This document shows positions 9,141-51,872 of a stretch of 64,000 bases of DNA, one piece after another. The position numbers and the translations under genes are program-made. A model generated the notes under the pieces. That model was not told where the DNA came from and did not search any database. It saw only the letters and a list, made by a program, of their open reading frames with translations. The first letter of the stretch is position 1; the number at the start of each line of letters is the position of its first letter. The stretch is from Hexactinellida sp. DTS-2022 (taxonomy: Eukaryota > Porifera > Hexactinellida). The stretch is taken from the NCBI GenBank assembly GCA_028753945.1, contig JAPNXP010000009.1, positions 4,712,001 through 4,776,000 on the forward strand, given 5' to 3'.

Positions 9141-10339
9141 TCCTGAGTTAGCAAATTTTCTATCTGTAGCAACACGAGACAAGCATGTTTGAAGCGGGTA
9201 AACGTCTGCTTGCTTAATTTTCCACCTTTACCAGACAGCGACTCCAAAGCTTCTAGCCAATATACAATCCTAGTCAGTAAGAAAAATGCTCATCGTTAAA
9301 TCTTATTGGATTACACAATGGGTCGTTCAACTGATATGTTTATATGGCAAATTGATATTGAAAATTTACAAGTGCGATAGGAGAATTCCTCCGAAATTAG
9401 AGTTGTTGCATTTGAATGCTGGAGATTGCTACTCATTCTGGATAGCTGGAGCAGCAATTGTAGATTCGTGTACTACTTTTGGGACCAACTTAACATTTTG
9501 ACGTTCTAATTGGATGGATAACATCCTTAGAAGTCAAACGAGGGGCAAGTTTAGCAAGGCTATCTCTCTCATAATTATATAGTATACGGATATCACGGAA
9601 AGAAGCATGACAGATTTTCAATGGATAAGCGCATCGGTCAATAGAAATACAGTTCAAATCAGGATAAGAAAAGAGCTTATTATCAGTTTGTTGATTCAAC
9701 CAGTTATTGCGAATAGTCTTCAGAATTTGTACAAAGTTAAATATAAGGAAAAGACCTCTGCGTATATCACAAGGGTGTGGTACTCGAGTCTCCAGCTTTC
9801 TATTAGAGGAAAACAATTTGAAAAGTTTCATATTAAGGGGATAGTTGTCAGTGGAGATAATTTCAACGAACAAGCCACAATCTTCAACATCATGAATACA
9901 AGTTTTGATAGTGTCGAATAACTTTTCAGCTTTTACAGAAGCACATGGGAGTAGACGAACAATACAAGACCATTTCTTATACAGACTCGATACCATGATG
10001 GCGAAAACTGTCTTTGAGGATTATCTGGATCGAGGTTTGAAGCAAACAATCTTCCTCCTTTATTAGAAATATCAGATTTCACGTGAATTTCATCCATTTG
10101 AATAATGACATGCCTCTGTTCCTGAGAAAAGGAATGTGTGGATTCCTTAAGAAGCATAAAGAATTCATTTTCAAGTCCAAAAGGATGAATACAATTTTTG
10201 TAACTTATTGGAATGAGGAAGAGAAATGCAAGACAAGCTCTGTAGATAGTGATAAGAAGCACGAGAAATTATATGTGTTTTAAGAGCTAAGATCTGCGTC
10301 AATACGTTATAGCTCCGCCTCTTTTTTGGATCAAGACTA

Positions 10340-11481: not shown

Positions 11482-12625
11482 TCTATACGAGGAAGCATAA
11501 AAATTAGTGTATATTCTTCGGGATACCACGTAGATATCCAGCAATTGAGAGTAGGGGTAACTTAGCTTGTAAATCATGCAAACTGTGGATCTTGAACTTT
11601 TCATTCTCTTCGACATCTGACTCTAGACTTAGTTTAACTGCTTGATAGAGAAGTTCGTCATCTTTGTCCTATGGAGATAGACTTGTGCGTTTGGTGGTAG
11701 TATGAAATGAATAGTACCGTGGACATCCTGGCAAAATAGTTGGCATAGCTCCATCTTTCAGCTTAGGACGGTTGCTTGGTATTTCTCGATAACTTCCGTC
11801 TCCATTGGGAACTTTGTGTGTTGTTTCGACTTCATCTTCTGTAAAATGTTTTGAGCACACGTACACGACTTTCAGTTCATCTATATCAACTCTGTGTAGC
11901 GCTCGTAACCAAGCATGTCTCTGTTCATCCGGCTTCCGTGGCATCTTGAACACAGATATTCTGTCGGTTGGGTCAAAATTGCTTTTGCAACCGGGTGCAG
12001 AACAGTTGTTGGGCATGATAATAGCTAGGGTAAACGGAAACAGATTGAAAAGTATCAGAAAGGTGGATTAATAATGAGAAATTAGTGAAATACAAATTTT
12101 TAGATAAATGTTTATATATGTACATTATAGTAGGGCAGATTAGCTAATGAATGTGGACATCCCGGACCAAAGCACCAAATTTTTTCCACGTACAGACCAT
12201 TGCTTGGGCACTCGATTTTTGGTAGGATCCACTTCCGCCGGATACATTATGGCCTCCATCATGCATTTTCAAAATGGTCACTTTAATATTATTCGGACAA
12301 AAGTCCGCATTCACAAACTCATGTCAAATGAATTCGTATAAGGTTATTTTATGCATTGTCGTTATCAGAACAGTGCTCTGTCGAAAGATGGGTCACTCGA
12401 TAGAGTCGCTATCATTTTTGAGAATGGAATGTTCAACATTCCACCGTTGTCAAGGAAACTTTTTTAATCTAATATGGTCATGTGACCCCTCTAATTAACG
12501 GAAAATTCCATGCTGATTACGAATATCCTATTTCCTGATTGGATTAATTATCATTTTAAAAGTTATATTACATTTGGTGGTTCCTAGGAGCACCAAAGAA
12601 TCTTCTAGAGAAAAGAGTGGTAAAG

Positions 12626-25705: not shown

Positions 25706-26880
25706 GCTGATCGTGATTATGTAAGTCAAAAAATTATTCTATGTCCTAAAAATGATACCGCTGATTTAATAAACGATGACGTTATCTATCAGGTATAACT
25801 CTGTTGAGCGCAGATTCTGTTGAAGGTTCTGCTGCAATAAATTTTCCAATTGAGTTTTTAAATACCATCACTCCTAACGGTATGCCTCCTCATCGGCTAT
25901 TCTTGAAATTGTTAGCGACTGTAATTCTATTGTGTAACCTTGATCCCGATCAGGGTCTTTCTAATGATACTCGGTTTATTATTAGAGCATTCTCAAACCG
26001 AATAATTGACGCAGAGATCGCAACTGGTACAAACAAGCATAAGCGAGTGTTTATACCACGAATTATCTTGACTTCTTCTGAGTCTGAACTTCCATTTATT
26101 CTCAGAAGGAGGCAGTTTCCAATCCGTCTAGCCTATTGTATCACAATTAACAAAGGGCAAGGTCAGACTTTGGATACCGTTGGTCTGTATCTGTCATCCC
26201 CTGAAGCCATTTTTAGCCATGGGCAACTCTATGTTGAGTAGAGTTAAAAATCCATTGGGACTAAAAATAATGGTATGTGGAACTGACAAATCGAAATCTG
26301 GGGAAGTTTGGATTAGGAATGTAGTCTATAGGGAAGTTTGTAAATCTTCATCATATGTAACCCATAAAGACATAGATGAAATATGTTCTCTATTGAATGA
26401 AACATTTCCAAATTCTCAATTGACAATGACTCCTTTGCCTGAGGCTATTGCTCCCCCTGCAAAGAGAGAGTTCTCCCAACTATATCTGATGGCAAAGGTA
26501 AAATCATTAAACTTCACGAGTTTGATGACAGTACTATTAGCCCATTGGAAGTTATAGACAAAATGGATATTAGCTGAATTCATTGTATCACCACTATCAG
26601 ATCGTGAATGTATATTTGATGCAATAATTCGAGATCCATACGATTTGTCAGAGTATTTTCTCAATGATAAGGTCAATAATCTTACTATCCCAATGCGGCA
26701 GAAGGCGTACCCTATCTCATATAAAATTTGGCACTGAAATTTTTTTCGAGATATTAAAATACAATCTGATTAAATTAATACATTCATTACCAGTACCCAG
26801 CATCACTACAATGTTATGCGCAAATCAGGCATACTCAGTGTACTGATGTCAACTCAATGAATTGGAACATTCTCCCTAAC
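25706..26880 (+). pseudogene. Helitron RepHel helicase, C-terminal remnant
   Basis: Reads DYVSQKIILCPKNDTADLIN (about 25712-25772), SADSVEGSAAINFPIEFLNT, PPHRLFLKLLATVILLCNLD and IPRIILTSS. RRRQFPIRLAYCITINKGQG and QTLDTVGLYL follow, then HGQLYV (26218-26237). This order is the C-terminal PIF1-like helicase block of Helitron RepHel proteins (motifs V/VI around INKGQGQT). A one-base shift and stop at 26239 separate it from LSRVKNPLGLKIMVCG. A further stretch, PLPEAIAPP and SPLSDRECIFDAIIRDPYDL, runs to about 26720. The Rep domain and Walker A are absent, and the upstream part is cut off by P copy E. Confidence 0.75.
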
Positions 26881-27700: not shown

Positions 27701-30204
27701 TGAGAATGTAAAGATATTACGCTCCACTATATTAAACGTTGTTGTACGTATATTAGTAATTTCACCATTAAATCACTAAACTAACAGAAAAGTTGGGATT
27801 TTGGAAGAATTAATTAATTTACGCATGATTTCTCTTATTGTGAAGATAATTAGCTAATACCCGAAACAAAAGATATTTAGTACATTCTTCAGATTTTTTA
27901 AATTTCACAGTTAAACTTTCAGTTTCATTTTAAGAAAAAAGAGACCTTCGATCTCGGTCGCTTTGCGAATGAATGATACTAAGCAGACATCTTCATACAG
28001 TATATATTTTCTCTGTTAACTTTGGTATATTTTACTATTTAAAAATTGAGAATTTCTGGTACCAATAATCAGTTAATTAATACTTTAGACCATAGCCTAC
28101 TCTATATATGGCCTGACAGTAACCTAGAAAATGTGGACCAAGGATGAAGGAGAAGATGGTAATATTTATCCAACCACAATATTTAATTTCAAAAATAATA
28201 ATCATAATCAACCACAGTGGTTTAAAATGGGAGTTAGTAAAGAATAGGTATCCTGGTTGCAGATAGACATATGAGATGTATTAAATGCATATGGGTTATT
28301 GATAGCTGCGAATTGAATGGCATCATCAAAAATGATGTATCCACTCTTTTAAGTTTAGTTCTAGGCGATTTGTTGTAAATCAATGAAACACAAAAATTTT
28401 GGTTTGTTAACAATCTTTTAATACTCACCCACAGTTGTTGTTCAAATATGTTGAACATGGGGAATATTTTGTAAAAGTCCAGTTCCCAAAGGATATAAGA
28501 ATTTGTACACTCATGTAAAGGGGCTAGATTGTTACTTATTGTAATTATAATGTGTATTAGAACTCATATAAATCCTAGATGACTTTTTCTAGCATAGCTG
28601 TCACTTGTGCATCACACTAAATAACCTCCGAATTGTGCAAAACTAACTTCCTTCAATATCAAAATCCCAATATGAGTTCATAGTTCGCTGCTCTCATTGA
28701 TGAAATTGTACTTAAGTGCTCAGTTGTTCTTAATATACAATATTTACATACATTTGGGTAACCAATAAGATATACTACTGAATAGTCGCGAATAATTAGT
28801 TTTAGCATTTTCATAGCAACGAAAAATAGAGAATGGAATTTGAATATAAATTCTATATTGCGCATCGAAGCGCATCTAAATATTTTAATATGTTGTATAT
28901 GTTCCATCATAGAATGGCCACAGGAAATTTCTAAGCTATAGAATGCTATATGTGTTTTAGCGGATACTTAAAAATTTCAAAATAATTTGATATTGATAAT
29001 TTTGTCAAACAGCTCCAAAGAAGAAATTTGAGAAGTTAATAAGACATTTGGATCAATTTGACAATTTGAATAGATTGAATATGTGTTAAATTTAGAATGT
29101 ATAAGAAGAGTAAGGTATATTGCAGACACAAACGAAATCCTAGCAAATTGAAATTCTTGATATTTTGAAACCGCAATTTAAGGAATTTTGATAAATACAT
29201 TCTTTCATCTTTAACAGTTGCTAGTTTTAGCTATAGGTACTCCACCAAGTTAATTTTTGAAATACTTAGTAATTACACAATTATAAATCTATTTATTTCA
29301 TAATTAAGCAATTTCTACACCTTGAAATTTTCAACTATTCCGTGCCCCAAACCACTGTGTCAACCACATTAAAATTAGAAATATTCTTGAAATATATACA
29401 ACTATTGATCAGATTTTATTCCAAACTCTTCTATTGACGTAAAATCTCGTCCTTTTAATTTCGCTTTGGTATTTATTCTTATTATCTTCTATTCATCTCT
29501 AACTTGTGTTCTGTCCCCGGATGCAAGAGCAACTACAACCCGGATGACCATGTTCCTGTGTCCAAGAAGCCTCAAAATCCACCAACCCTGAATCATGCCT
29601 GGACATGCGCTCTTTGTCGCGAGGATATCGGTGACCTGAAGGTGGTCTATGTATGTATCGACCATTTTCAGAAAAAAGACATAACTACACTTTCCAAGTC
29701 CCAAAAGGAGATGGTACTTTTACTGAAGTACCGCGGGCAAATCCAAAGCTGAAGGAAGGCGCTGTACCAAGTTTACTAACTCGCTGCCCAGCATATTACT
29801 CATCCAAAACTAACAAACGGAATCGCTTCTCATACGATGCTAAAGAGGAAGAATTGATGAACCAAACACTACAACTCAGCTTGAGATCCGAGAGTCAAGA
29901 GAAAGAGAAGTTTGTGGTAACTCTCTACAGGACTTGAAAGATAAGTTACTCTCGATTTATCATTTATTTACCTTATAGTTGATTGGTGTGGTTCCGTAAT
30001 GAAAGCAACATAACGTTTGTTCTCGCTAAAATGGCTGAAAAAATTATCTCAGTAGATTTGTACCTTGAAATCAATGCTTATTTATCCAACTCAGCCTATT
30101 TTAATGGACAGAGTATATCCGTTTCCATTGCTGCAATTAGTGACATCCGAGATATTGAATCTGTTTTGCAGGAACTTGCTTTAAAATACAACTCTATAGA
30201 TGTG

Positions 30205-30525
30205 ACGAGTATCACCTAGAGCCTTCAGGAGTAGTGTCCTTGGGAAAGGCACTAGGTGGAAGTACGGGACACTACATGAGTAGTCTGTAGATAGTCCGGC
30301 AGTACGACTGGTAACCATAGTCTAGGACTATGGATACATGGGAAGTACGGCACTCGCAGGAGCCACGGGCGGGAGCGAGAGGTGCGGCAGTACGCATGGT
30401 GGTCGAGGGTTACCCTCCTGATGAGTCCCTGGAATGGGACGAAACCACACACTTAACATCCCTATGGGATGGGGTCAGCTAGAGCGTCTAGTCTTCATAC
30501 TAGTACGTGGCCTCATCTCATAACA
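30205..30525 (+). other. structured insert carrying a hammerhead ribozyme
   Basis: Distinct from the AT-rich surroundings and placed exactly where P copy B lost its RNase H region. It contains paired arms TAGTGTCC (about 30232) / GGACACTA (about 30268), the perfect hairpin CCATAGTC-TAG-GACTATGG (about 30315-30333), CTCGC...GCGAG, and CATCCC-TAT-GGGATG downstream of the ribozyme. The phrase GG(A/C)AGTACG recurs four times. No tRNA-type promoter boxes, poly-A tail or target duplication were recognised; edges are approximate. It could be a SINE or retrozyme-like unit. Confidence 0.6.
30399..30448 (+). ncRNA. hammerhead ribozyme, type III (minimal)
   Basis: All conserved core nucleotides are present in order. 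Helix III 5' strand GTGG (30399-30402) is followed by the cleavage triplet GTC (30402-30404, cut expected after 30404). Helix I is GAGGG-TTA-CCCTC (30405-30417), then CTGATGA (30418-30424). Helix II is GTCCC-TGGAAT-GGGAC (30425-30440), then GAAA (30441-30444). Helix III 3' strand is CCAC (30445-30448). Helices I and II have five perfect pairs each; helix III has four plus the A-U next to the site. The 3-nt loop 1 leaves little room for the loop-loop contact of fast natural hammerheads, so activity may be modest. Hammerheads are known in SINE-like and Penelope-like repeats and retrozymes of animals. Confidence 0.88.
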
Positions 30526-32144
30526 TAGCTATAGTTATTGTGATTATCCCCTTAAGTTCGGTTGTGCATCATTTGAAGATGTACGTCAATTATATCATTC
30601 AGAAAGAACATGTTTAGCCAAGTTAGCTCCTCATTTGACTATGGAGTCAGGTTTTTCGTCTAGCAATGAGCGTCAAAATGTCAAACTGGTTTTGAAAGTC
30701 GTTAACGAATTAACAATATCTGCGCTAACTATCCAGAATATAGAAATAATACTCCGGAGTTTGCTCCCGGACTTACTGTTTGGAAATTATTCAACGTTAA
30801 CGCACCATTTAAAGGAATACGTTTGAACGATAATTTCTCTAGACGTTTGACTTTTAATGACGAGGAAATTCTATTTTTGACTCGTGTAGTTTTGGTTAGA
30901 TGCTTGGCAAACTTTACCAGAAAAAATTGGCAAACTGAGTAAACAAACATACACCAGTTTTAGACATGCTTGTATTGCCTTACCACAAATTACCAACCAT
31001 TTGACTCAAACATGTGGCATTAAATATGTGTTATCCTCCTTTCTACAGACGGATCCCTTGTAACACCATTTCGGTCTTTACCGTATTATGTCTTCAAATC
31101 CTTGAACCGAGCATCGACTTGAACTTTCTAGCATATTAAACATATTTACTGACCAACAAGACACTTCCTTTCAATCTATTCAGTCATTTGTCAAGCCATT
31201 TTCTTGTCCGTATTCCACTATTGATGGTGAATTCAATTTGGAGCCATTTCTTGATGAGATTAATGACCTATCAACAATTGATTGTGGTTCACAGTTGCTT
31301 CAATCATTAGCCTTTATTGCAGGCTATACTGTCCATCAGTACCTGAAACAACAAAACCGTGTCATGTCTCTACATATGCTAACAGTTGATATAAAATTTC
31401 TCCTTTATTTAGACCTGGACTCTCAGTATAAACTTCTGCAGCTAACGGACCGTGGCGGACATAAATATCTATCTGAGCCAGTTTTGAAATCCATTCTTGT
31501 TTTATGGAAGACCTTTAGTGCCATCGAAAACAATAAAGATCTGTTGGCGAAACTTGTAAGTGGACCTTCTAGAAATATATTTGTTAAACTTTCATTGATG
31601 TATTTGGAAGTCTGTGTTTAGTTGGAACATCTTATCGAAGCTAGTCTACCGCAGCGAATTGCTTTCTTGCAAACAAAGTTAATAATTATAACTCGCTCGT
31701 TCCTTTCAAAAAGTATAGAAAAGCGGAAATTAAAGAAATTCTCTTAATTATGTGTCTACTTATTTGTATTTACCATGATTTGTATTACTCTGTTATTCTT
31801 ATTTTTATTATGTAGTTAAGTGTGTTGTGTGTCACTGCTAGAGCCAGAGAGAAAGAGGAGAGAGGAAAGAAAGCAAATAATTGTGTATTTATATTTACTG
31901 TATATTAGAAATTGTACTGTTTGTGTTTATTATTACTATTAAATTATGAAAATCCAATCACCGTTGTCACTACAGCTAATACTAATCACGGGCTAGCAGG
32001 GCTGAGTTATGTTTACGACCTAGAGACGTATAAAGAACTTAGTAGTTCAATATAGAAAACATTAAAAATTAAAATTTCCCATCTTCTTGTGCATCCCTGG
32101 TACATCTACTGTCAGGCCATATATAGAGTAGGCTATGTTTAGAC

Positions 32145-44737: not shown

Positions 44738-47255
44738 CAGTGCTCCCTCTAAGCTTTTTCGGCGGTAAATTGCCGAAATATGATGGCCCGGAGGTGCCAC
44801 CGCCGATTTACAAAAGAAATTCGGCCACCGCCGGATTTTTAGAGGGCCAAAGAAGTTCAAAACCACAGTACTGAGAATATATATTTAGAATTATTAACCA
44901 CAGTATCGAAAAAAAATAAAGAATATAGTATGTAGAGTTTGTGTTTGTATGAGTCTCGTATGTAGATTATGGGTCATCTGAGTTTGTTGACCACCCGTCA
45001 GACAGATCATCTTCTGGATCTTCAGGCTCATTGTCTCCCAGTCGGCACCCTTGACCCTTAGTGGTTCATCGTCTGCGCTGTTCTCAGATACAAGGGACCT
45101 ATCAGAGATGTCCTCCTCGTCGGAACTAGGCACAAAGTATTCGTCGCAGCTATCGTTATCTTCGAGGTCTGCATCCTTGGTGAGTGCGTTGGCTACTCTC
45201 GCACGTTTGATAGCCGATTCAGCAGTCAGCTTTCGCCTTCTGTCTTTTTCCGACCACCACATCTCGAAGGCTTGTTCCAGCTCCTCACCAGAGCAAATAT
45301 CATTAGAGCGAGAGAGCAAACGAACCGCCATGAGACGGTCCAGTTGTGGTATGGCGATTGGCGAGGCATGCCCTATACTTGCTCTTAATCCTGTTCTGAC
45401 AGGAGAACGCTCACTCTGCTCCTGCCGACGAAGCCGGCACACAGCCAACTACGTCTACCAGCAGAGAAAAGTGTTTGCCAACACCCGCCTCCGACGCAGC
45501 CTTCTTGATACACGAGACTCTTTCTCTACGCGCATATGTTTCTGTCAGTCGAAAGTCTCTATACAAAGATTTTCTCTCCGCTTTGCTCCCTTTGCCAAGA
45601 AGAGGCGTACAGGTCTTCACCAGATTGGAGATGGCACTCTTGACATCATGCTTTGGTAACTTTGAACCTTTGATGCGGAGCTGCAGGAACTCAAAGGGCT
45701 TGAAAATCTTTGCCGATTCTAGCGGTAGACGCTTGCGGAGGTGTTCGAGGAAAACCTTCCGGAGTTGCTTTCCGGCATCACTTAGTCCGTCTAGAAACTC
45801 TAGGCGATTCCCTGTCTTCTCGATCAATGTGAAGCACCGCCATACAGTAAGTCCCTCCAACTGTGTCTGCAGACTGAGAACAGACACTATCCTCAGGATG
45901 CGGCGAAGGTCACCAAAGAGAACGCCTCTCTCCCTAAAGAATGTAATTACTAACTTCCTTCCGCAGTGTCCCGCAGGTAATAGTTCGACTCAATGAAGCT
46001 TAGAACCTGGTCCATGCAGTCAAAGAGTACAGAAATACAGCGATAGCGACCGATCCACCGTGTTTCGATGAGAGATGTTGGTAGACGAGCCTCCTTTCCC
46101 CAGACGTCACAGAGCGCCTTGTACTCTCCGCACCTCGAGCTGCTTCTGGAGAAGAAGCTGTAGGATGCCCGACAAAGTGCGTCTACCTCATGGAGAAAGA
46201 CCTTGCAACACGGATCTTTATAGATATCATCGGCATCCAGTGCCAGTCTATGGGATGTGCAGTGGACTTGGTAAAGAACTTTTTATCTGCGTTCACCCCT
46301 CTTGCCTTCGCGACTTCTTCAGAAAAGTGCTTCACCATTCCGTTGTGCACACCTACCATTCGCCATCTGACCCCACATCGACGCAGTTGGCTACGGACAA
46401 GCCATGCTTGGCCAGCAGAGAGTAAGTAGCTGCCGCGATAGCTTGACCAGTGCCATTCTTGAGCTCCACAAGTCCAAGGAACTGTGAACCATACTTCATA
46501 GTGTTCACTAGGCAGCACAGAGTCTTGGTCATAGATATGTCCGTCGACTCATCCAGAATGACACTATAGGAATCCCCATCACGAACTCCCTCGAGAGACT
46601 TTGTTCTAATGACGTCTGAAAGGAACTGGAGGTGGATGCTGCCATAGTTCTTGCCGCGCCAGTTCTCAGACGGAGATGACTTTGACTGGGACACAAGGTC
46701 ACCAAACTTGAGAATAGGAGTACGCTTCGCGAGTGCCATCTCCTGATTGCAAATGAGACTCAGAGCTCCGAATTGCAGAATCACCCCATTCTTCACCTCC
46801 TCCTTGATATTCTTCCGGGTCTCACACTTTTTCATAGCAATGTCCTCCAGTGTACGCTTCATGGTTGGTTGTGACCTCGTTGCACCCTGTCCTTTACAAG
46901 CCCTCTGGTGGTCAGTCAGATTTGACCTCTTTATCCCTTTATATACTCTCCACCTCCCGAATGTCGCAATGGCCTGCTTGTAATCTGCACAAAGCTTGCA
47001 GCGGTACAATTTTGTATCCACATCAGTTTGGAACTCGAGCCAGAGGAAGTCCTTAGGATACTTGTCCATATGAATAAGATCACTAATCTTCAATATGTTT
47101 AAATATTTAGTGCATATGCATGGATATAACTATGTGTAAGATATGTTTACGATTTTGACTGGCCGAATTATGTAGCCAAATTAAAAGTCACCGCCGAATA
47201 TCTGGCGGAATTAGCCGCCAGATAACGGCCTTGCCATTTCTTAGAGGGAGCACTG
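44738..47255 (-). mobile_element. hAT transposon with BED-type transposase
   Basis: Perfect 16-bp inverted ends CAGTGCTCCCTCTAAG and CTTAGAGGGAGCACTG. Flanks CTAGGTCG (44728-44735, two bases before the end) and CTAGGTCC (47256-47263) give a 7/8 match, fitting an 8-bp target with slight erosion. GGCGG(T/A)AAT and GCCG repeats sit near both ends. It is inserted in T3. Confidence 0.85.
44894..47093 (-). pseudogene. hAT transposase, KIAA1586/SPIN-DOC-like type
   Basis: Starts MKISDLIHMDKYPKDFLWLE (47093). A zinc-finger-like region follows with YRCKLCADY and NLTDHQRACKG (BED/C2HC type, about 47010-46900). Then come SENWRGKNYGSIHLQFLSDV, DSYSVILDESTDISMTKTLC with the first catalytic Asp (about 46580-46520), and NCVDVGSDG. 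The next frame gives VGVHNGMVKHFSEEVAKARG and, after another shift, HRLALDADDIYKDP and ETRWIGRYRCISVLFDCMDQ (about 46270-46010). A later frame (45887-45411) reads LQTQLEGLTVWRCFTLIEKT. The last (45448-44894) ends in an acidic YFVPSSDEEDISD tail. At least four shifts. Less AT-rich than its surroundings, which suggests recent arrival. Confidence 0.75.
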
Positions 47256-48518: not shown

Positions 48519-51500
48519 CATAGCCTACTCTATATAAGGCCTACAATCAAATCTACCATGGATGAAGTAGTGTACGATGAGATTCATTTTAGAAATTAAT
48601 CTGTTATAATAAATAATTCTAGTAAATTAATAGATTTTCTCTATTGAGTCTTTATTGCTTACTTAACAACAATGATAAGAATACATAAATAATAATGTGG
48701 GTTCAAATAACAATAATAATAACAATAATAATAATAGAAGAGTAGCCTTCTGGTGTATTTCATTAATGTGAGAACTTCTTCAGTTTTCGCTTTTCTATAC
48801 CTTTAGATGCAACAGCGGAGTTATAATTATTAACCTTGTTAGCTAGTGAACAGTTGGCGCAAGTGAAAATAAGATTTTTTAGGATAGTCAAAATAGATAC
48901 ACCACAAGAAATGCAACTCAATTTAGCAATCGCATCAGTCTCTTCTAAGAATATCAAGGTTGCTTCACAATAATTTTTCTGGATGATCCTTCCCTCAATA
49001 TCGCCAACAAGTTTTCTTTGCTTTCAATTGCAATTAAAGTCTTCCATAAAGTTACTATAAATTTGAGGATAAACTCAGATGGATACTTTAGGCCACCACG
49101 GTCAGTTAATTGCAGAAGCCTGAACTCGGGTTGTGAATCTTCATAAAAGATATAGTCTTTGTCAATGGTCAAAAGATCAATGCAAACATGACATGGCTGA
49201 GTTTATAAAATATATTTATGTACTGCATAACCAGCAATAAAAGCTAATGAGTGAAGAGTCTGTAAACTACATCCAATGGAAGTTAGATCATCAATTTCAT
49301 CCCAGACTAGCTGGACATCGATTTCATCGCCATTATTCGTATCAAAGGAAGAGTATGAATCAATAAATGTCTGAATTGAATATAAGCCACAATCTTGTTG
49401 TGAAGCAAAAATCTTTAATATGTTAGATAACTTGAGACGGCGTTCAGTTTCAAGGATTTGAAGATACGAGATATGATAGTTTGAACCTGACATCATACGA
49501 TATAGGCCAAAGTGATGTTCCAATGGATCTATATGTAAAAAGGATGTCAAAAGATAGTTAAATCCACAAAATCCAGTTAATGGTTATTTATCTGAGGCAA
49601 TACAGTACAAGCAAGTTTAAAACTTGTAAACGTTTGTTTACTTAACTTTCCTACATTTCCTGGCAAAGTCTCTATCAAATAACAACACAAGCTAAGAATG
49701 AAAATCGTTCGTCCTGGTATGTTAGAGGCCTTGAGATATCATCATTCAAACGTTTACCTTTAAGTGGGGAATTTATGTTGAAAAGTTTCCAAATTTGAAG
49801 AAGTATTTCAACAAAGTCGTGTGTATTGTTTCGGTCTTCTTGGTTACGGAGTTCATTCTGTAACTTCAGAGCTGCAACAGTTAATTCGTTGAATACTTTC
49901 AAAACAAGTTTCACATTTTGGCGCTCAATAGCAGAAGGATAACAAGCTTTGATTGTCATGCTAGGAGCTAACTAAGCTAAGGATTCTTTCTCTAAATTAT
50001 AGAGGAGATTACATCACTAAAAGATGCAGAGTGAACTTGAACAGGATATACACAGTAATACAGCTTAATGTCTGAAAGTTGGGAAAGTTCAAGGTTTTCC
50101 GAATATCTTTCTGAATCAACCAGTTGTTTCGAATACTTTTCAGAATGTGCACAAAGTCAAAAGTAACATAGAGTTTTCTTTATTATCAGAAGGGTGTGGT
50201 ACACTAGTCTCTAACTGTTTAGTTGGAGAAAATAACTGAATAAGTTCACGTTTAAAGGATAATTGTAAGTAGAAATAATCTGTACTTTCAAAACGCAAGA
50301 TTCGATATCCAAAATACAAGACTTTACTATAGGAAAAGGTATTCAGCAGATATAGATGCGCAAGGTATCAAACGAGAAATACAGGACCATTTTTTGTGTA
50401 AACTAGAAACCATGATAGCAAATACAGTTCTTGTGGGGTTTTCAGGGGATAAGTTAGGTCCAAATATTTTCCCACCCTTATATGAGATATTAGACTTAAC
50501 GTGGATCTCATCCATCTGAATAATTACATTCTTCTCTTGAGAACTAAAAGAAGAAGTTACCTGGCTAAGGTAAGTATTGAGTCGTTTTCCAGCCCAAAAC
50601 AAGAGTACAACTTTTCTAGTGTGTGAACATGTGGAAAAGAAATGCATTCTGAACTTTGGAGAAATTTGTAACTATCAGGAGAAACTAGATGCGTTTTATG
50701 GCCAGAATTTGTGTAATAACATTATATCTCATTCTCTTCTTGTAAATACTCGCATTCTCTAGTTGGCCAAGAATAAATTGTAATCTTGGCAAATCGGAAC
50801 AATTGGATTCTGTTTCATCACTATCTAATAGATTACATATGGCCTCCTCAATATGTTCTTTTGCTTTAGAGATATGGTGAGGATGTTTCTTCTGAGGGGA
50901 AGAGCTAAGTTTCAGAGTAATCTCTGTAAACATCGTTACAATTTGTCGAATATCAGTGATAGAAATAAGTGAGAGAGAAATAGACTCCCCATATATATAT
51001 CCGTTCACAGATAAAAAATAATTTATTTCAAGAGAAACATCTGCACAAATATTATGATTTTCCATCTTAGGCAAAAAAATCTCACACAATTATCTGTTTG
51101 AATCCAAACTAACCAGTCAGTTGGGATTGTAATCAAAGCTAACTTATCTCGTATTTCTTGTATACAACCAACACAAAACTTTCCATTTCTGTATTCTCTG
51201 ATCTCAAGCTGAGATTAGTTGCTTGGTTCAATAAATCTTCTTCTTTGGAGTAGTAAGAGAACCGAGTTCGTTTGATTCTAATTGAAGGGGTAGACGAATA
51301 ATAAGACGGACAACCAGGAAGGAGAGAGGGGACAGTGCCAGGATTTAATTTGGGTCTTCCTCGCGGGACCTCATAGGATGTGCCATCTCTGGGTACAGTG
51401 TGAAAATATTGAATATCTTCCTTCGGAAAATGCTTAGCACACACATAAACCATTTTGAGGTAAAAAATATCCTCACGATGGAGAGCACGTATCCAGGTAT

Positions 51501-51872
51501 GTCGTAACTCAGGGGTGGACCATCTGGAAGTTTAAAAACTGGGACGCTCTTCTGGGGTATAATTACCCCTACAACCAGGGACAGAACAGTTCGGCATTGA
51601 GAAAAATTAAATATCTAACTATTTATTAAAAAGAAACAAAGTCAAATATAGCACTAGGAAGTGCTTAAAATATCGGTGGAAGGAGAATTGTATTAATTAA
51701 TTACTAAAAATTAATAAAAATCAGTAGCAAGTTGATTCAACTATTTTTAAAATATTTCTAACTGTCAGAGATATATGTAAATGACTATGGGTCAATAATA
51801 ATATCGTACACTACTTCATCCTTGGTGCAAAATATTAGCTTTGATGGTAGGCCTTATATAGAGTAGGCTATG
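48519..51872 (-). mobile_element. P element, copy C, 7-bp TSD GTAATAG
   Basis: 3354 bp. Ends CATAGCCTACTCTATATAAG and its exact inverse, with terminal repeat similarity to about 60 bp (GGATGAAGTAGTGTACGAT). Exact GTAATAG repeats at 48512-48518 and 51873-51879, though the target itself is GTAATAG-rich. It is the most complete P copy in the window. Confidence 0.9.
48763..51597 (-). pseudogene. THAP/P transposase, copy C (nearly full length)
   Basis: THAP domain from 51597: MPNCSVPGCRGNYTPEER, then a pair of small shifts around VPVFKLPDGP, then HTWIRALHRED, VYVCAKHFPKEDI and LLPGCPSYYSS. The second block (51061-50700) reads DVSLEINYFLSVNGYIYGES. The core begins VIIQMDEIHVKSNISYKGGK (about 50525-50465). 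The second acidic site reads IISTYNYPLN (about 50270), with Tyr (TAC) where copy A has Asp (GAC). C-terminal blocks: ERQNVKLVLKVFNELTVAAL (49925-49866), DPLEHHFGLYRMMSGSNYHI (49530-49471), LQTLHSLAFIAGYAVHKY, LLQLTDRGGLKYPSEF and SKGIEKRKLKKFSH (48804-48763). Blocks are separated by intron-like gaps and shifts. Confidence 0.85.

Follow-up and report, generated by a model that had tools for sequence, protein, structure and literature searches.

An insert of 325 bp, beginning TGTG and ending AACA, lies at positions 30201 to 30525 of the window, by which we mean the whole stretch of 64,000 nucleotides that was analysed, and it carries a motif that matches the type III hammerhead ribozyme. The features of the insert and its surroundings are as follows.

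30051 to 30200, plus strand: left flank, belonging to an older dispersed repeat into which the insert went (matches of the joined flanks without the insert)
30197 to 30200, no strand: left target-site copy, TAGA (matches the right copy at 3 of 4 bases)
30201 to 30525, plus strand: probable solo LTR of a non-autonomous LTR retrozyme, 325 bp, TGTG...AACA (copies, boundaries, TSDs and homologous empty sites)
30232 to 30254, plus strand: predicted 5' hairpin of the LTR RNA (RNAalifold columns 32-54 of A1, compensatory G-C/U-A/C-G)
30397 to 30450, plus strand: type III hammerhead ribozyme, as supported by RF00008 at 58.2 bits and by covariation
30399 to 30403 with 30444 to 30448: hammerhead helix III, an open helix
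30404 to 30405, plus strand: predicted self-cleavage site, after C30404 (the H17 position in the aligned hammerhead)
30405 to 30409 with 30413 to 30417: hammerhead helix I
30425 to 30429 with 30436 to 30440: hammerhead helix II
30463 to 30522, plus strand: predicted long 3' hairpin of the LTR RNA, beside the U5 end (RNAalifold columns 281-341 of A1, compensatory changes)
30526 to 30529, no strand: right target-site copy, TAGC (matches the left copy at 3 of 4 bases)
30526 to 30675, plus strand: right flank, in the same target repeat (matches of the joined flanks, aligned homologous sites)

The window is rich in the remains of DNA transposons, and the following domains were located in it.

9490 to 10020: TNP-like RNase H domain
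11672 to 12067: THAP frame
25780 to 26241: Pif1 2B domain
29459 to 29749: THAP domain in an open reading frame near the left flank of the insert
46353 to 47129: DUF4371, a weak match below the curated cut-off
51142 to 51531: THAP frame

The genome as a whole encodes two nuclear-receptor DNA-binding domains, THAP domains and 153 SRCR matches. We take these three kinds of domain to be marks of an animal, and presume that a small number of receptors beside abundant SRCR domains fits a sponge. The genome is accordingly that of an animal, probably a sponge. A search for Wnt gave no match in the genome or in the controls, and a result of this kind is no evidence of absence.

A sequence-only reading of this DNA had placed a type III hammerhead, with all three of its helices, at 30399-30448 and had predicted cleavage after 30404. 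When the plus strand was searched with cmscan, positions 30397-30450 matched RF00008 (Hammerhead_3) over the full model, 1-54, with a score that exceeds the gathering threshold of 48.5 bits (E 4.2e-12 over 1.1 kb and 2.5e-10 over the whole window), and RF00008 was the sole Rfam family to reach gathering anywhere in the window. All three helices form in the window copy, and the aligned hammerhead puts the predicted cleavage at the same cytosine. The motif is abundant in the genome: the core pattern CTGATGAGTYYYTGNNATRRRACGAAA occurs, at up to 2 mismatches, in 386 places (190 on one strand and 196 on the other), the reversed control pattern occurs in none, and a search of the genome with RF00008 gave at least 68 matches, at least 64 of them above gathering. 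Covariation was measured in alignment A2, which holds 36 of the 45 distinct ribozyme sequences; the nine omitted are distinct only by their two final letters, which no helix includes, and seven more instances were set aside as odd (L028, L058, L064, two of L068 and two of L076). In these 36 sequences 96.5% of helix cells are paired, and changes on both sides of a helix occupy 24 cells compared with 5.6 in shuffles, none of 500 shuffles reaching as high.

The search pattern behind A2 already fixed most of the core bases, so core conservation was taken instead from 42 copies that were picked by similarity of the LTR, with the ribozyme not used, and that all cover the ribozyme. The core is unchanged in 34 of them, four differ at N7 alone and four have other changes; the substitutions are N7:G in five copies (one of which also has T4:A) and A6:T, C17:A and A15.1:C once each. 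A hammerhead accepts any base at N7, and its C17 may be A. Other copies lacking the core and the helices would have refuted the sequence-only reading; instead the core is conserved and the helices covary across a dispersed set of copies. Covariance model, core conservation and covariation together support the identification of the window motif as a type III hammerhead.

The description of the insert as distinct and strongly structured also holds: its GC content is 0.532 against 0.341 in the 4-kb flank, and its fold has a z-score of -2.88 over 325 nt, with 0 of 100 shuffles as good. Of the limits first given to it, 30205 and 30525, the right one stands and the left one has to be moved 4 bp outwards, to 30201. 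Full-length copies of the window LTR occur elsewhere in the genome at 97-100% identity, and the insert copies share exact ends, TGTG or TGTT on the left and ACA or TCA on the right, outside which the DNA is unrelated. Solo copies are flanked by perfect 4-bp TSDs in 16 of 19 cases; two have 3 of 4 bases, one of these being the window copy, and one was left unmatched by the script. This count comes from 36 scored rows, of which 17 were left out as arrays, palindromes or badly placed ends (five of L009, two each of L017 and L065, and one each of L010, L039, L046, L059, L064, L066, L067 and L075); none of the 17 matched at 4 of 4 bases. The joined flanks of the window insert match all 40 of the scored places over nearly their full length, with the insert absent. 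In three aligned homologous sites about ten bases at the joint differ from the window, and for this reason the exact letters that preceded the insertion were not recovered. In L035 (182-492 and 1493-1628) a partial ribozyme LTR and a further copy of this target repeat are about 1 kb apart, and in L027 (1672-2078) a stretch of LTR beside a ribozyme copy has been tandemly amplified in units of about 44 bp. The window copy is a single LTR, which would stem either from recombination between two LTRs or from integration of a cDNA with one LTR.

Longer copies reveal the element to which this LTR belongs. They have TG...CA ends and consist of two LTRs enclosing about 1 to about 175 bp, all of it non-coding, and the hammerhead is present in both LTRs in L009, L017, L065 and L067. 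The LTR pairs of L009 and L017 are 99.7% alike and enclose 161 and 174 bp, respectively; by eye, a PPT directly precedes the 3' LTR in each (AAAGGGAAGGTGA in L009 and AAAAAGGGAAGGTGA in L017), and L017 has the TSD TACT. In L065 the LTRs measure about 223 bp and the TSD, ACATG, has 5 bp, while L067 consists of two abutting LTRs with the TSD CTCC. It had been remarked at the outset that hammerheads of animals usually sit in retroelements or satellites and that no retroelement coding is visible in the window. The second remark is borne out, and is explained by an element that codes for nothing and of which the window has one LTR; as for the first, the carrier is a retroelement and not a satellite. 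A DNA transposon was rejected because the longer copies show the ends to belong to an LTR pair with an internal region and a PPT.

These copies have the layout of plant LTR retrozymes, in which, as described in PMC4918200 and PMC7761336, type III hammerheads lie in LTRs around a short internal region, with a PPT and a 4-bp TSD. In the account of PMC4918200 the likeness extends to LTRs of 300-400 bp that each carry the ribozyme, a non-coding internal region, a few hundred nucleotides between ribozymes, a GC content above that of the genome and an inferred Ty3 helper. According to the same account the plant elements differ in their host, in internal regions of 300-600 bp and in a tRNA-Met primer site, where the family of the window has a hairpin at the LTR junction and its relatives a tRNA-Gly site; the palindromic insertions described below are a further difference. 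Animal retrozymes, by contrast, are described in PMC7229834 and PMC7761336 as having type I hammerheads and neither LTR, PBS nor PPT. They share with the present element an animal genome, a small non-coding body with a hammerhead and a predicted highly paired circle, and as set out in PMC7229834 they have larger TSDs. Since hammerhead carriers of this kind have been described in animals (PMC7229834, PMC7761336), the insert might be a non-LTR retrozyme, a satellite or a Penelope/Terminon-type repeat. This is extremely improbable: instead of type I hammerheads in tandem arrays we found type III hammerheads in dispersed single copies, with TG...CA LTRs, a PPT and 4-bp TSDs, and such carriers were rejected on the LTR pairs, PPT, short TSDs and lack of long arrays.

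The distance from ribozyme to ribozyme, which is the expected length of the unit RNA, is 486 nt in L009, 504 nt in L017, 372 nt in L065 and 238 nt in L067. Folded as circles, these units are predicted to have 67-70% of their bases paired and to be stabler than simple shuffles. RNAalifold, applied to 22 copies, gave a conserved structure for the LTR RNA in which compensatory changes occur at 10 of the 52 predicted pairs; these pairs sit in the 5' hairpin, a middle helix, stem II of the ribozyme and the long 3' hairpin. Within the window, GGAAGTACGG and GGCAGTACG motifs at a spacing of about 85 nt flank two LTR-RNA hairpins at 30258-30400, and possibly these repeats are a recurrent internal-loop or junction motif. 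Compactness of this order would also suit a viroid-like or delta-like circular RNA agent of which copies had entered the genome, and agents of this sort do have type III hammerheads, for example the delta-like RNAs of toad and termite (PMC7936874). Such an origin is very improbable, given that the LTR ends, the PPT and the 4-bp TSDs are marks of a retrotransposon and that a 25-nt stretch of the ribozyme had 0 exact matches in a single exact-match scan of viral_contigs.

The ribozyme-bearing elements differ in what follows the 5' LTR. In the relatives L064 and L075 the LTR is followed by TTGGTGCATTGGCCGGGAA, the complement of the 3'-terminal bases of a tRNA-Gly(gcc) encoded in the genome. This site, preceded by ACA, occurs in eight places in the genome at up to 2 mismatches, six of them exact, and by eye all eight adjoin a ribozyme-bearing or ribozyme-like LTR. 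Ribozyme and tRNA site occur together in L064 and L073-L077, and L065 presumably has a tRNA-Ser-like primer site. No tRNA-like site was found by eye after the LTR in L009, L017, L010 or L022, which belong to the window's family, and the number of tRNA genes near element copies was 0. Where the tRNA site would be expected, a hairpin in this family spans the junction of LTR and internal region, its outer arm being the LTR end itself; we therefore treat the family as a variant of the LTR retrozyme. Ribozyme-bearing relatives with a tRNA site make it clear that the hairpin is not needed in general, and there is none in L067, with its abutting LTRs.

Among the 55 LTR ends located in the fetched loci, 13, from eight loci (L009, L010, L017, L022, L049, L063, L066 and L068), have their last 7 nt repeated as the reverse complement within 90 nt downstream, where 0.005 would be expected per end; the hairpin is absent at the other 42, which include solo LTRs, in which it is not expected. 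Four hairpin-bearing junctions have fold z-scores of -6.4 to -8.7. The arms change in concert, LTR ends of CATAACA, CGTAACA, CATGACA, CATCACA and CACCACA each having a matching arm, and TAAGTACT/AGTACTTA in L017 is mirrored by TTAGTACT/AGTACTAA in L022. Judged by these sequences, the junction hairpin is shown to be under a pairing constraint, in which sequence varies and pairing is kept. A competing explanation, which we consider unlikely, is that the element is an ordinary tRNA-primed or host-primed LTR retrozyme, and that the hairpin is a by-product which arose where LTR ends recombined into palindromes and which plays no part in priming. The outer part of the hairpin is indeed an exact inverted copy of the LTR end, as this explanation would have it. 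However, a dead by-product would lose its pairing, while several hairpin sequences keep theirs through mirrored changes, and the missing tRNA-like site in the four loci named above is likewise at odds with it.

A search of the same genome for integrase (rve) scored 150 places, many of them in long open frames, and five autonomous elements were sampled, each with an integrase match in a frame of more than 1,400 amino acids and with its end pieces fetched. All five have an LTR pair of 149-177 bp starting TGTCATG or TGTTA, and four have perfect TSDs, the fifth having 3 of 4 bases. In every one of them the sequence that follows the LTR is complementary, without mismatch, to LTR position 89-105 (over 11, 12, 15, 14 and 12 nt), and each match is above all 200 shuffles. 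Such an arrangement is that of the self-priming Tf1/Tj1 (PMC4600332). That the genome's autonomous elements are themselves self-priming is a further point against the hairpin being a by-product. The Ty3 order of domains, RT-RNase H-integrase, was seen in L081, and its RNase H-integrase part in L084, both of them elements distinct from the five. The borders of PPT and LTR in the autonomous elements, for example GGGAGGTGA|TGTCATG, GGGAAGGGTGA|TGTCATGAT and GGGGGAATGA|TGTTATA, appear to resemble those of the retrozymes, GGGAAGGTGA|TGTGACG and GGGAAGGTGA|TGTTATAG, and of L076, GGGGAGAGTGA|TGTCATG. It is this resemblance of the borders that points to a link between retrozyme and helper, and we infer that the helpers are self-priming Ty3-type elements.

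The retrozyme shares with Tf1/Tj1, as described in PMC4600332, post-LTR bases that pair with the element's own RNA and not with a tRNA. The place of the partner differs, however: upstream in the LTR, at the 5' end of the RNA, for Tf1/Tj1 and the five autonomous elements, and downstream, in the hairpin, for the retrozyme. The longest complement of the post-LTR bases was found in the hairpin, at 7-9 nt, in six of the seven retrozyme copies tested; the exception is L063, with 8 nt in the LTR against 6 downstream, where the LTR end was cut one base off. A hairpin right after the 5' LTR, in the position of the PBS, has been noted in bivalve TRIMs (PMC6934838) and was earlier proposed to replace the PBS in fungal GalEa as a 'Conserved Hairpin Site' (PMC5445492). 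In the descriptions given there, GalEa is a coding Copia element whose hairpin arms are nearly fixed and no ribozyme is reported for the bivalve TRIMs; the retrozyme hairpin differs from both in including the LTR end and in varying in sequence with its pairs kept.

Copies of the element are also joined head to head. In L009 an LTR, an internal region, an LTR and the hairpin are followed by three reversed LTRs, 2,184 bp in all, with CTAT on both sides. Seven palindromes could be scored (L009, L010, L049, L063, L066, L075 and L076; L068, with one end cut, L073 and L074 were left out), and both U3 ends point outwards within a perfect 4-bp TSD in five of them: L009, L049 (CGTA), L063 (TGAA), L066 (ATAT) and L076 (CAGG). 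Neighbouring ribozymes within 700 bp formed eight same-strand and three opposite-strand pairs among the first 100 places listed, the L009 cluster supplying three of the former and one of the latter; because the loci were partly picked for neighbouring pairs, we claim no frequency for the palindromes. In L063 (276-806) the left arm has the ribozyme and the right arm has other sequence in that place, as would be seen had each arm been copied from a template of its own. L076 (125-819) is a palindromic LTR element with a tRNA-Gly site and a different hammerhead-like motif, CTGATGAGGCCTGGAAGGCCGAAAC. The frame directly beside it reads like RAD51, in our estimation.

Hairpin-shaped molecules can give fold-back errors in sequencing, and L010 and L075 have no 4-bp TSD, so the palindromes might be artefacts of assembly or chance head-to-head insertions. 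We regard this as improbable: the other five have different unique flanks and a perfect duplication around the whole, and the arms differ in sequence in L063 and L010. Since relatives with a tRNA-Gly site, L075 and L076, have palindromic joints too, palindromes alone do not prove priming by the hairpin. These joints fit the view that the hairpin arose as a by-product, and the chief alternative to a link between hairpin and palindrome is that cDNA folds back in general.

Our data establish a family of type III LTR retrozymes in an animal genome, with a hairpin at the LTR junction, alongside self-priming autonomous elements and palindromic insertions. We think it likely that the window insert is a solo LTR of such an animal LTR retrozyme, one that would make circles with its ribozymes, prime itself from its hairpin and borrow Ty3-type enzymes. 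We tentatively propose an undescribed route in which hammerhead-made circles are self-primed at the junction hairpin with the help of Ty3-type enzymes, palindromic cDNA being a regular side product. The two hammerheads would cut the transcript to a unit of about 486-504 nt (238-372 in relatives), and the unit would be closed to a circle. Such a circle would have no 5' end to act as a Tf1-type primer, and we suggest that the complement of the primer site is for this reason carried just downstream of the site, in the hairpin. A nick after the 3' arm of the hairpin would then let reverse transcriptase extend that arm into the LTR. The hairpin primer would stay joined to its template by the loop, and read-through would give an LTR, the hairpin and a reversed LTR; through this attachment hairpin and palindromes may be linked in the window's family. 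Integrase would insert the palindromic DNA by its two outward U3 ends, and self-priming Ty3-type elements would supply the mobilising enzymes.

We found no report in the open-access literature of LTR retrozymes in animals, or of a retrozyme combined with self-priming. A likeness exists to the Helenus/Ajax TRIMs, which as presented in PMC10886601 are also small, non-autonomous elements whose LTRs contain a functional RNA, with TSDs of 4-5 bp and animals among their hosts, although their LTR RNA is a tRNA or 5S sequence and not a ribozyme. Hundreds of type III copies in the LTRs of an animal would break the divide between plant LTR retrozymes and animal non-LTR retrozymes, and they bear on the question of inheritance, transfer or a twofold origin. 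The junction hairpin would explain in concrete terms how a self-priming system could start on a circular RNA that lacks a 5' end. The palindromic insertions are a trace left in the genome, one that could be counted in other species.
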